Part shown: piece by piece, positions 24,551 to 60,264 of the stretch | Position numbering within the stretch: position 1 is the stretch's first letter | Layout: each line of letters begins with the position of its first letter | From: Virgibacillus doumboii | GTDB lineage: Bacteria > Bacillota > Bacilli > Bacillales > Amphibacillaceae | Direction: 5' to 3' | Length of the DNA stretch: 64,000 nucleotides | NCBI RefSeq assembly: GCF_902806455.1 | Contig: NZ_CADCWQ010000001.1 | Location: forward strand, 1,178,001 to 1,242,000 | Translations under genes and position numbers: made by a program | Notes under the pieces: model-generated | Told to the model about the DNA's origin: nothing | Databases searched by the model: none | The model's input: the letters and a program-made list of their open reading frames with translations, nothing else

Positions 24551-24738
24551 AGTTGAACGCACCATTCCAAATGTTGATTTTCGGCATTTGTCTAAAATCT
24601 TCAACTTTTAAATTTGCTGTATAAGAGCAACATTTCTAAAAAAACTTCGAGCATTAACATTTAATTTTTTTCAAAACAAATTCCTTTTCAACTGAATAAA
24701 ATGATAGTATACTAGTCAATGACAACTATATATCGATT

Positions 24739-24881
24739 CCATCTTCGGGGCAGGGTGAAAATCCCGACCGACGGTAAGGAGCAAATTTTGTTCTAAGTCC
24801 GTGACCCGCTAAGCATATTGCTGAGTGGTTGACCTGGTGTGAGTCCGGGACCGACAGTTACAGTCTGGATGGGAGAAGATG
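24739..24881 (+). promoter_or_regulatory. FMN riboswitch (RFN element)
   Basis: The conserved RFN blocks are present in order: ATCTTCGGGGCAGGGTGAAA at the 5' side, ATCCCGACCGACGGTAAGG, the variable arm near GTCCGTGACCCGC, then GACCTGGTGTGAGTCCGGGA and CCGACAGTTACAGTCTGGAT, closing GGGAGAAGAT. It precedes ribU on the same strand. Bound FMN should favour the downstream terminator and lower riboflavin uptake. Confidence 0.97.
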
Positions 24882-24931
24882 CTGAGCTGAAAGTTGGTGC
24901 ATTTTGCGCCTCCGTTTTCCTGTGAATATAT

Positions 24932-43501: not shown

Positions 43502-43608
43502 TCTCTTATTCAGAGTTGGTGGAGGGACAGACCCAATGAAGCCCGGCAACCGTCACTAAGGTGAAAAGGTGCTAATCTGGTGCAAGGATTTTCCTTGAAC
43601 AATAAGAG
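43502..43608 (+). promoter_or_regulatory. SAM riboswitch (S-box)
   Basis: S-box hallmarks in order: closing stem TCTTATT/AATAAGAG, GGTGGAGGGACAGACCC, AATGAAGCCCGGCAACC, and AAGGTGCTAATCTGGTGCAA. It precedes metK; bound SAM would favour the following terminator and lower SAM synthesis. Confidence 0.97.
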
Positions 43609-50692: not shown

Positions 50693-50938
50693 ACATATAC
50701 TATCGACTATGCGAAGGACTAGTAGTAAATTTGTTCAGGTAAAGCGAGGCAGTGGCAGGTGAAAACTGTTCCTGACGATTTATGAACTCACCTTCAAGTT
50801 GCAGGAGTGAACGTTAGTAGTTTCTGCCGTGAATCTGCGTTAAGGATAAACAAGTGAACGCATGCTAGCGTTAATTTGGGTGGTACCGCGGGAAAAACAG
50901 CTTCTCGTCCCTTTATTGGGATGAGTGGCTTTTTTTAT
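50693..50938 (+). promoter_or_regulatory. T-box riboswitch, leucine (CUC specifier) with terminator
   Basis: The T-box core GGGTGGTACCGCGG is at 50878-50891 and is followed by the terminator/antiterminator pair (CTCGTCCC... with ...GGGATGAG and GGCTTTTTTT). The likely specifier codon is CTC at 50787-50789 (GAACTCACC), a leucine codon. Uncharged tRNA-Leu should allow leuS transcription. Confidence 0.95.
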
Positions 50939-54858: not shown

Positions 54859-54920
54859 CAGATGTCAGAGGTAAGAAGTCGGAAGTCAGATTACAGTAAT
54901 CTGAATGAAGGCTTCGACCC
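54859..54920 (+). repeat. IVS-end-like sequence and hairpin in the 16S leader
   Basis: CAGATGTCAGAGGT (54859-54872) and CGGAAGTCAGA (54880-54890) match the left end of the 23S intervening sequence at 24 of 25 positions, with a 7-nt insert between them. CAGATTAC and GTAATCTG (54886-54902) then form a tight palindrome, and GAAGTC/GGCTTC extend the stem. It lies inside the 16S processing stem, between boxA and the 16S start. Confidence 0.75.
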
Positions 54921-54981: not shown

Positions 54982-56738
<1,757 letters not shown>

Positions 56739-56921
56739 AGTTAAGTGAAGAAGGGCGCACGGTGAATGCCTTGGCACTAGGAGCCGAAGAAGGACGGGAC
56801 TAACACCGATATGCCCCGGGGAGTCGTAAGTAGACTTCGATCCGGGGATTTCCGAATGGGGGAACCCGCTGTTCGTAATGGAGCAGTACTTGTGTCTGAA
56901 TACATAGGGCACAAGAGGCAT

Positions 56922-56956
<35 letters not shown>

Positions 56957-57836
56957 AGAGAAAGCAAACGCGATTTCCCAAGTAGCGGCGAGCGAAACGG
57001 AAACAGCCCAAACCAGAAAGCTTGCTTTCTGGGGTTGTAGGACACTCCATTGGAGTTACCAAGAAATACGTTAGATGAATCGACCTGGAATGGTCAGCCG
57101 AAGAAGGTAAGAGCCCTGTAGTTGAAAGCGTGTTTCCTCCGGAGTGGATCCTGAGTACGGCGGAACACGAGGAATTCCGTCGGAATCCGGGAGGACCATC
57201 TCCCAAGGCTAAATACTCCCTAGTGACCGATAGTGAACCAGTACCGTGAGGGAAAGGTGAAAAGCACCCCGGGAGGGGAGTGAAAGAGAACCTGAAACCG
57301 TGTGCCTACAAGTAGTCGAAGCCCGTTAATGGGTGACGGCGTACCTTTTGTAGAATGGACCGGCGAGTTACGATCGTATGCAAGGTTAAGTGGCAGACAC
57401 GGAGCCGCAGCGAAAGCGAGTCTGAACAGGGCGAAATAGTATACGGTCGCAGACCCGAAACCGTGTGATCTACCCATGTCCAGGGTGAAGGTCAGGTAAC
57501 ACTGACTGGAGGCCCGAACCCACGTATGTTGAAAAATGCGGGGATGAGGTGTGGGTAGGGGTGAAATGCCAATCGAACACGGAGATAGCTGGTTCTCTCC
57601 GAAATAGCTTTAGGGCTAGCCTCAAGGTAGGCGTACTGGAGGTAGAGCACTGATTGGATGAGGGGCCCTCACCGGGTTACCAAATTCAGTCAAACTCCGA
57701 ATGCCAGCTACGTATCCTTGGGAGTCAGACTATGGGTGATAAGGTTCATAGTCGAAAGGGAAACAGCCCAGACCGCCAGCTAAGGTCCCAAAGTATACGT
57801 TAAGTGGAAAAGGATGTGGAGTTGCCCAGACAACCA

Positions 57837-57898
<62 letters not shown>

Positions 57899-57945
57899 TC
57901 TGCGCCGAAAATGTACCGGGGCTAAACGTATCACCGAAGCTGCGG

Positions 57946-58387
57946 AAGCAGAGGTCAGATGCCAGAGGTCGGAAGTCAGAAGTGAGGGAAGACTGTGATC
58001 AAACACTATAAAGATCTAAGGATTTATCAACAATCTTATGAGCTTGCTTTAAAAGTTCATCAAATCAGCTTAGAATTCCCCAACTTTGAAACGTATGAAC
58101 TTGGTGCACAAATAAGAAGAGCTGCTCTTTCTATTCCTGCAAATATTGCGGAGGGATATGGAAAGAAGGATTCAGTGAATAATTTCAAGCGGTTCCTTAA
58201 AATATCACTTGGTTCTAATAATGAAGTCAAGGTAATGATAGACTTCGCTAAAGACCTAAAGTATCTGGATGAACAGAAATATACGTATCTCTTTCAGCAA
58301 TATGAAGAGTTAGGCAAACAGATTTATTCCTTAATACAAAAGTGGAAATGAATCTGACTTCTAATTTCTGGCATCTGACTTCTGTTT
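57946..58387 (+). mobile_element. 23S rRNA intervening sequence (IVS) in helix 45
   Basis: The segment replaces the short helix-45 tip of ordinary Bacillus 23S. It is bounded by inverted repeats (57946-57980 and 58353-58387) that pair over 35 positions with only one true mismatch (a C-A) once G-U is allowed. The arms contain CAGATGCCAGA and GAAGTCAGA. The loop carries an S23-family ORF. RNase III would be expected to excise it, leaving 23S in two pieces. Confidence 0.93.
57995..58351 (+). CDS. Four-helix-bundle S23 protein encoded in the 23S IVS
   Basis: This 118-residue protein has four amphipathic helices. The family hallmark is IRRAALSIPANIAEGYGK at about residues 40-57, followed by NNFKRFLKISLGSNNEVK and LDEQKYTYLFQQYEELGKQI. 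It matches the 23S-IVS 'four helix bundle' family (S23, PF05635/TIGR02436), known from IVSs in Leptospira and Coxiella and related to the Avd protein of diversity-generating retroelements. The start is GTG with GAGGG six bases upstream, and the stop lies just inside the right inverted repeat, so the ORF fills the loop. The frame is intact, which suggests selection. Its molecular function is unknown; nucleic-acid binding is inferred from the relatives. Confidence 0.92.
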   Translation: MIKHYKDLRIYQQSYELALKVHQISLEFPNFETYELGAQIRRAALSIPANIAEGYGKKDSVNNFKRFLKISLGSNNEVKVMIDFAKDLKYLDEQKYTYLFQQYEELGKQIYSLIQKWK

Positions 58388-59076
58388 GGTAGGAGAGCGT
58401 TCCAGTTGCTGCGAAGTCAGACCGTGAGGACTGGTGGAGCGCCTGGAAGTGAGAATGCCGGTATGAGTAGCGAAAAAAGAGTGAGAATCTCTTTCACCGA
58501 AAGCCTAAGGTTTCCTGAGGAAGGCTCGTCCTCTCAGGGTTAGTCGGGACCTAAGCCGAGGCCGAAAGGCGTAGGCGATGGACAACAGGCAGATATTCCT
58601 GTACCACCTCATGAGCGTTTGAACGATGGGGGGACGCAGTAGGATAAGGAAAGCGCACCGATGGATGTGTGCGCCCAAGCAGTGAGGGAGTTGGATAGGC
58701 AAATCCGTCCAACAATTCCAAGCTGTGATGGGGAGGGAAATATAGTACCGAAGTTCCGGATTTCACACTGCCAAGAAAAGCCTCTAGTGAGTTCATAGGT
58801 GCCCGTACCGCAAACCGACACAGGTAGGCGAGGAGAGAATCCTAAGGTGAGCGGGAGAACTCTCGTTAAGGAACTCGGCAAAATGACCCCGTAACTTCGG
58901 GAGAAGGGGTGCTCCTTTAAGGAGGAGCCGCAGTGAATAGGCCCAAGCGACTGTTTAGCAAAAACACAGGTCTCTGCGAAGCCGAAAGGCGAAGTATAGG
59001 GGCTGACACCTGCCCGGTGCTGGAAGGTTAAGGGGAAGCGTTAGGCCTTCGGCCGAAGCGTAGAACCGAAGCCCCA

Positions 59077-59153
<77 letters not shown>

Positions 59154-59408
59154 TGCAACGACTTGGGCACTGTCTCAACGAGAGACCCGGTGAAATTATA
59201 CGATGTGTGAAGATGCACATTACCCGCGACAGGACGGAAAGACCCCGTGGAGCTTTACTGTAGCCTGATATTGAATGTTGGTACAGCTTGTACAGGATAG
59301 GTGGGAGCCATCGAAACCGGAGCGCCAGCTTCGGTGGAGGCACCCGTGGGATACCACCCTGGCTGTACGGACATTCTAACCCAGGGCCGTGATCCGGTCC
59401 GGAGACAG

Positions 59409-59444
<36 letters not shown>

Positions 59445-59600
59445 CAAAAGGTAACGGAGGCGCCCAAAGGTTCCCTCAGAATGGTTGGAAATCATTCGCA
59501 GAGTGTAAAGGCAGAAGGGAGCTTGACTGCGAGACCTACAAGTCGAGCAGGGACGAAAGTCGGGCTTAGTGATCCGGTGGTTCCGCATGGAAGGGCCATC

Positions 59601-59709
<109 letters not shown>

Positions 59710-59714
59710 TAGTC

Positions 59715-59798
<84 letters not shown>

Positions 59799-59822
59799 TC
59801 GTGGGCGCTGGAAGTTTGAGAG

Positions 59823-59856
<34 letters not shown>

Positions 59857-60147
59857 ACACCGCTGGTGTACCAGTTGTTCCGCCAGGAGCATTGCTGGGT
59901 AGCTACGTGTGGCAAGGATAAGTGCTGAAAGCATCTAAGCATGAAGCCCCCCTCAAGATGAGACTTCCCATCACTTCGAGTGAGTAAGATCCCTCAGAGA
60001 CGATGAGGTAGATAGGTCCGAGGTGGAAGCGTGGTGACACGTGGAGCTGACGGATACTAATCGATCGAGGACTTAACTAAAAATGATTGATGACGTTGAT
60101 ATAATGCTCTTATTTAGTTTTCAGGGTATAATTCCCTATATGTTTTA

Positions 60148-60264
60148 GTCTGGTAGCAATAGCGGAGAGGACACACCTGTTTCCATGCCGAACACAGCAG
60201 TTAAGCTCTCCAGCGCCGATGGTAGTTGGGGCTTTGCCCCTGCAAGAGTAGGACGCCGCCAGGC
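60148..60264 (+). rRNA. rrf: 5S ribosomal RNA
   Basis: A 117-nt 5S gene with TCTGGTAGCAATAGCGGAGA at the start, CATGCCGAACACAGCAGTTA in the middle and AGTAGGACGCCGCCAGGC at the end. The 5' and 3' ends pair (TCTGGTAGC region with GCCGCCAGGC). It follows 23S by about 70 nt, normal for Bacillus rrn operons. Confidence 0.96.

Follow-up and report, generated by a model that had tools for sequence, protein, structure and literature searches.

A 23S rRNA gene of Virgibacillus doumboii is interrupted by a 442 nt insert, at positions 57946-58387 of the 64,000 nt stretch analysed here (contig NZ_CADCWQ010000001.1, positions 1,178,001 to 1,242,000 of the forward strand, hereafter the window). We have very little doubt that the insert is an intervening sequence (IVS) encoding an S23 protein, and consider it probably a member of a wider S23 class whose arms are arrays of 7-8-nt units. 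The S23 IVS at helix 45 is an already known kind, also present in other Bacillota, the array arms and a class extending outside rRNA were less expected.

The helix 45 insert and its S23 gene

The gene is full-length apart from helix 45, whose 17-nt tip has given way to the insert. The Rfam bacterial large-subunit (LSU) rRNA model matches end to end at 56739-60080 (model 1-2925, 2933.6 bits) notwithstanding the insert, and the tip, which reads GCGG-ATTGTTCTTCGAACAAT-GG in two empty paralogues of the same genome, reads GCGG-(442 nt)-GG in the window. The two ends form a 35-nt inverted repeat (57946-57980 and 58353-58387, 83% complementary), which an earlier reading made from the letters without database searches (the sequence-only reading) had correctly noticed and, slightly generously, called near-perfect. 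Duplex folding that includes G-U pairs and the helix base gives a predicted 38-pair stem, 24 pairs of it uninterrupted (-61.6 kcal/mol), long enough for RNase III as had been anticipated, and the fold of the 541-nt region beats 100 of 100 shuffles (z -5.2). A hairpin-tip site, complementary ends forming a long stem, an open reading frame (ORF) of the 23S_rRNA_IVP family and sporadic occurrence among copies and relatives, the marks of an S23 IVS that sequence can show, are all found here. A self-splicing group I or II intron was rejected, as no intron family reached the Rfam gathering threshold within the window. The arrangement of the operon is as follows:

54860..54890, + strand: heptamer array in the pre-16S leader (AGATGTC AGAGGTA AGAAGTC GGAAGTC AGA), resembling the insert left arm
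54982..56546, + strand: 16S rRNA (Rfam match)
56739..57945, + strand: 23S rRNA 5' part, to helix 45
57946..57980, + strand: insert left arm, AAGC followed by heptamers AGAGGTC AGATGCC AGAGGTC GGAAGTC AGA
57984..57989, + strand: Shine-Dalgarno-like GAGGGA, 5 nt upstream of the GTG, read directly and identical in congener copies L025 and L026
57995..58351, + strand: ORF for an S23/four-helix-bundle protein, 118 amino acids (profile matches, omega, fold)
58353..58387, + strand: insert right arm, inverted heptamer array
58388..60080, + strand: 23S rRNA 3' part
60149..60264, + strand: 5S rRNA (Rfam match)

The heptamer make-up of the arms was overlooked by the sequence-only reading, as were the S23 elements outside rRNA. 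The ORF is intact from its GTG start and matches PF05635 (6.7e-35, 120 bits, cut-off 33.8) and TIGR02436 (2.4e-33), which together with the LSU model match and the empty paralogues bears out the helix 45 site and S23 identity proposed from the letters. The protein has the fold of Avd, from diversity-generating retroelements (structures 4dwl and 8ub7), and a remote sequence likeness to it, a resemblance already in print (PMC10053308), yet it falls below the curated cut-offs (31.6 bits against 80 for the Avd family, 26.1 against 40 for PF22296) and so is not placed in that family. A phage origin of S23 was rejected, with no relative among 50,697 phage records at E 1e-5.

We compared the window ORF with the copies of a congener, G010, over gap-free codons only (117 and 116 for the first two). 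Against these two, synonymous divergence (dS) was ~1.3, non-synonymous divergence (dN) 0.065 and 0.072, and their ratio (omega) 0.049 and 0.055; the other two copies gave 0.089 and 0.092, in an assembly that also contains rRNA indels. Judged by these codon ratios, the S23 protein is under strong purifying selection between the two carriers (omega ~0.05), as the sequence-only reading had suspected, and it is better conserved than the neighbour-gene average (dN 0.065-0.072 vs 0.12). As the genes flanking the operon in the two genomes are near saturation (proportion of synonymous differences 0.74 over 4,360 pooled codons, counting one 38-codon frame that lies within 23S), a recent transfer of the insert between them looks unlikely. 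Over the arms and the stretch leading to the start codon, the carriers differ at 4 of 81 nt. The G010 inserts (L025-L028) and adjacent rRNA contain scattered single-base indels, probably assembly errors, and because this assembly (completeness 94) has indels in conserved rRNA, its broken S23 frames are not read as decay.

Five 23S genes are assembled in this genome, three occupied and two empty with the plain 17-nt tip. The other two occupied copies share one insert sequence, from which the window copy deviates by one ORF base. An assembly artefact, which the sequence-only reading had named as a way to be wrong, is unlikely because the three occupied copies lie at three separate genomic places and the window operon is syntenic with an occupied G010 operon (gene matches on both sides, insert in L027). 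A further 16S leader (G000:C2:619127-619231, where G000 is this genome) runs into the end of contig C2, so a sixth, unassembled rrn operon is probable; contig C4 (1543 bases), tried as a missing rrn part, gave no match. One shared base change sets the three occupied copies apart from both empty ones directly 3' of the insert (58388-58467), where a further three are seen in the window copy.

The survey of occupied and empty sites suggested at the outset covered 12 genomes of the genus, of which six gave 23S matches, leaving the other six unjudged. G010 is occupied in 4 of 6 copies, compared with 3 of 5 here, and all 20 copies in four congeners are empty (six in G001, seven in G002, five in G004, two in G009). 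The two carriers lie far apart on a one-gene genus tree (585 columns), which forces two changes, and a sister relationship was therefore discarded. Across the family PF05635 occurs in 11 of 159 genomes, 10 of them above the cut-off, and none of the 16 fetched S23 loci from outside the genus falls in rRNA. The site, the arms, the ORF with the selection on it and the empty sites are direct observations.

Elsewhere, the window holds an FMN riboswitch (24737-24884), a SAM riboswitch before metK (43503-43608) and a T-box leader (50700-50915). The Bacillaceae host deduced from the letters fits metK, the nearest named proteins being those of Virgibacillus and Lentibacillus (nearest 94%).

Array-armed S23 genes across genomes and sites

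For a wider view, 575 S23 relatives in titled genome records were ranked by protein similarity alone and the best 80 loci taken, 79 of which had enough flank for 150-nt comparisons with 301 control ORFs from the same loci. The flank inverted-repeat score averaged 17.7 in S23 loci vs 9.5 in controls, and exceeded the control 95th percentile in 54 of 79 loci and the 99th in 25. Flank self-similarity was raised at lags of 7 and 8 nt and again at 14 to 17, with 7 or 8 the best lag in 61 of 79 S23 loci vs 79 of 301 controls. Fifteen plasmid records, drawn from 40 with S23 matches, served as a second set; the best lag was 7 or 8 in 13 of them and the inverted-repeat score exceeded 14, the control 95th percentile, in nine. 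The sequence of the array unit varies between genomes, and in many phyla inverted arrays of 7-8-nt units border the S23 gene. This arrangement, by which we propose to define the class, is found both in the window and class-wide.

Most of these 80 loci lie outside rRNA by BLAST. Five interrupt 23S, four of them at or adjoining helix 45 (L057, L058, L059 and L063) and one near position 590 (L061). Sporomusa ovata and three other Bacillota assemblies carry an S23 insert at or adjoining helix 45, so that in sequence terms such inserts extend beyond the spirochaetes and Proteobacteria, where the sequence-only reading had them mainly established; its companion remark, that they are rarely described in this group, may hold for papers, no Bacillus case having been found in the literature searched. 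A plasmid-borne 23S gene of Azospirillum lipoferum also has an S23 element at helix 45.

Other structured RNAs are interrupted as well. In a Patescibacteria metagenome-assembled genome (MAG) an S23 element lies within the 16S gene near position 68 (L107:4882-5518), and a further 910-nt insert is found downstream. In the Rfam run, which covered 76 of the 80 loci (the four omitted were known rRNA cases), an S23 element with heptamer arms interrupts the RNase P RNA gene of a Clostridia MAG (L056:4826-5598); this RNA is otherwise complete (1-367, 280.8 bits) and the element sits in the loop of one stem, which we take to be P12. On cyanobacterial plasmids (L323, L325 and L334), S23 genes are flanked by cas6 and cas4 or by type III-B cas genes, the arrays of L323 being direct, not inverted.

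Dispersed arrays and ORF-less miniatures

One octamer array pattern was searched in 21 S23 genomes from among the 80 loci, ten with octamer-type arms and 11 with other arms, the counts including the arms of the S23 locus itself. All ten octamer-arm genomes gave matches (120, 47, 193, 52, 17, 86, 94, 315, 43 and 9), with the reversed pattern giving none in eight of them and 14 and 1 in the remaining two; seven of the 11 genomes with other arms gave none and four gave 28, 250, 16 and 9 (Fisher p 0.0039, Mann-Whitney p 0.0013). In G164 the 86 matches make up 49 arrays, 26 of which form 13 inverted pairs (≤500 nt apart), all in the same order. The gap within the pair is 19-101 nt in 12 of these, too short for the S23 ORF, and 370 nt in the one that is the S23 locus itself (L092). 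Among 30 loci fetched from the octamer-arm genomes 12 were paired, three of them repeating another, and the nine distinct pairs had gaps of 17-27 and 363-416 nt; 12 is an undercount, because the locus midpoint was taken as the place of the array, which is wrong near contig ends. The two gap sizes are the anatomy of a full element and of its ORF-less miniature, the latter 81-96 nt long in the fetched loci. ORF-less miniatures with the same arm type as the S23 element of the same genome thus occur in G164 and others, and this class-wide anatomy and the sharing of arm types are observed directly.

Dispersal of arm-like arrays shows weakly in the window's own genome. The heptamer pattern matched 122 times in G010, 39 times here and 2-19 times in ten S23-less genomes (reversed control 0-5); of the 39, 12 lie in 16S leaders, nine in inserts and 18 elsewhere. 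At up to one mismatch there are five matches here, compared with at most one in any of nine S23-less congeners, the listed places covering all S23-less genomes but G011, and part of G010, with some leaders recognised by sequence only. Ten dispersed sites fetched from this genome include two inverted pairs round a hairpin core (L218 and L219), and the 18 fetched from G010 include two inverted pairs (L233 and L237) and seven copies of a single repeat that are almost the same in sequence. Ten of 11 congeners lack an array at the L218 site at up to three mismatches; G010 has a different array there. Inverted heptamer arrays stand directly 3' of the glmS ribozyme in two species of the genus that are not sisters, this one and G010 (L219:374-672 and L237:457-742).

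Proposed mechanism and alternative explanations

We propose that the insert would be transcribed within pre-23S rRNA, where its two heptamer-array arms would pair into a long stem on helix 45. RNase III would be expected to cut this stem, whereupon the loop with the S23 message would leave and 23S rRNA would work in two pieces. The rRNA insert would be the resident form of the broader class, in which inverted 7-8-nt arrays enclose an S23 gene. Members of this class also lie within 16S and RNase P RNA and in intergenic sites, and miniature relatives that lack the ORF but share the arm type accompany them within single genomes. S23, as an Avd-like helical-bundle protein, would most likely act on the array hairpin, and on balance we favour the class with S23 acting on that hairpin in some way. 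More tentatively, and with less conviction than we would need to prefer it, S23 proteins may be trans-acting partners that move widespread, unrecognised mobile hairpin elements made of 7-8-nt arrays. S23-bearing elements might then be the full-length form, with hairpins of ~80-170 nt as the miniature form, and rRNA IVSs and the RNase P and 16S inserts might be copies surviving in the hairpin tips of essential RNAs, suggestions that we hold just as tentatively. In all of this we infer cleavage, translation, binding and the mobility of miniatures in trans.

Several points weigh against this reading. Excision, translation and the action of S23 on arrays are deduced from sequence, and neither target duplication nor between-strain insertion polymorphism was shown for arrays in this analysis. 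Inverted repeats fail to exceed the control 95th percentile in 25 of the 79 S23 loci, and six of the 15 plasmid loci have no inverted pair above it. The array types in the octamer comparison were assigned by eye, and octamer arrays also turn up in 4 of the 11 comparison genomes, with 250 matches in one of them. Dispersed arrays are few in the window's genome, where two of the 18 matches fall at a site common to 8 of 11 congeners, leaving nine sites, and the S23-less G001 also has nine such sites at two mismatches. The Avd match is at ~10% identity, by which the same function is not proven. For Coxiella burnetii, published results point to a lack of S23 production in vivo, with the ORF described as undergoing reductive evolution (PMC4990558).

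The rival explanations overlap with parts of this proposal. That the insert is an ordinary IVS, an inert selfish helix 45 insertion removed by RNase III with S23 as a passenger and heptamers arising from repeat slippage, is in our judgement unlikely. It would suit the patchy distribution, with two carriers distant on the one-gene tree, and the likeness to the Coxiella IVS, which also lies at helix 45, has a similar size (428 vs 442 nt), inverted repeats (a 28-bp stem) and an S23 ORF, and is reported to be excised by RNase III (PMC4990558). However, the Coxiella ORF is described as decaying and probably untranslated, whereas the present ORF is constrained and all three of its copies are intact, and this insert has plainly heptameric arms and empty paralogues. 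An inert passenger sits poorly with the strong constraint on the S23 protein and arms, and slippage leaves unexplained both the inverted arrays at the two ends of S23 genes in many phyla and the matching arrays elsewhere in the same genome. Leptospira IVSs (PMC4990558) and those of Salmonella typhimurium, 83 and 99 nt long and lacking an ORF (PMC2672173), are likewise hairpin inserts, at helix 45 or 25, in hosts of a different phylum; the Salmonella lengths are close to those of the miniatures described above, a likeness of length that we treat as a lead.

S23 could instead be a host-serving RNA-binding protein (in processing, ribosome assembly or stability), with arrays as its regulatory or processing sites, spread by selection and not by transposition, which we consider quite improbable. 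Purifying selection on the protein would fit, as would arrays adjoining hairpins, a glmS riboswitch or a tRNA, and the pre-16S leader array, present in 16 of 18 leaders read (both exceptions from G009), lies partly within the predicted 16S processing stem and is in part predicted to pair with the 16S-23S spacer. Yet three of the four S23-less congeners whose leaders were read keep this array with no PF05635 match, and occurrence is patchy among 23S copies in both carriers and at unrelated sites in other genomes. In REPIN/RAYT systems, short hairpin repeats are scattered about and have few relatives that encode a protein, and the dispersed arrays might be such repeats, owing their spread to a RAYT (Y1) transposase and merely resembling S23 arms. 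Y1_Tnp matches do occur in 10 of 12 genus genomes, most of them in G010, which also holds most arrays, but none of the 14 Y1 loci examined (of 26 matches listed) has a heptamer array at up to three mismatches, while S23 loci carry them. This weakens RAYT as the mover of the arrays to the point where we think it very unlikely, and the partner proposed here is S23. The GGGAATC-type heptamer repeats of Xanthomonas and Nostoc, which in two Xanthomonas genomes make 70 and 75 inverted pairs in convergent order, share with the S23 elements heptamer arrays in inverted pairs (PMC4692102), and the text of that paper mentions none of S23, four-helix, intervening or XCC0516. No paper linking S23 to 7-8-nt arrays was found in the literature searched, whose coverage lies mostly outside subscription journals and in which RNase P inserts were not a search target.

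The role and origin of rRNA IVSs are still described as unclear (PMC4990558). This genome provides a natural system in which occupied and empty copies share one cell, the ORF is under protein-level selection and the arms are linked to dispersed repeats. With S23 elements in 16S and in RNase P RNA, 'RNA in pieces' would no longer be confined to 23S. If the proposed class is real, many unexplained bacterial heptamer and octamer repeats would gain a candidate protein partner, and if S23 does act on them in trans, this would join two old puzzles, the role of the IVS protein and the abundance of heptamer repeats.
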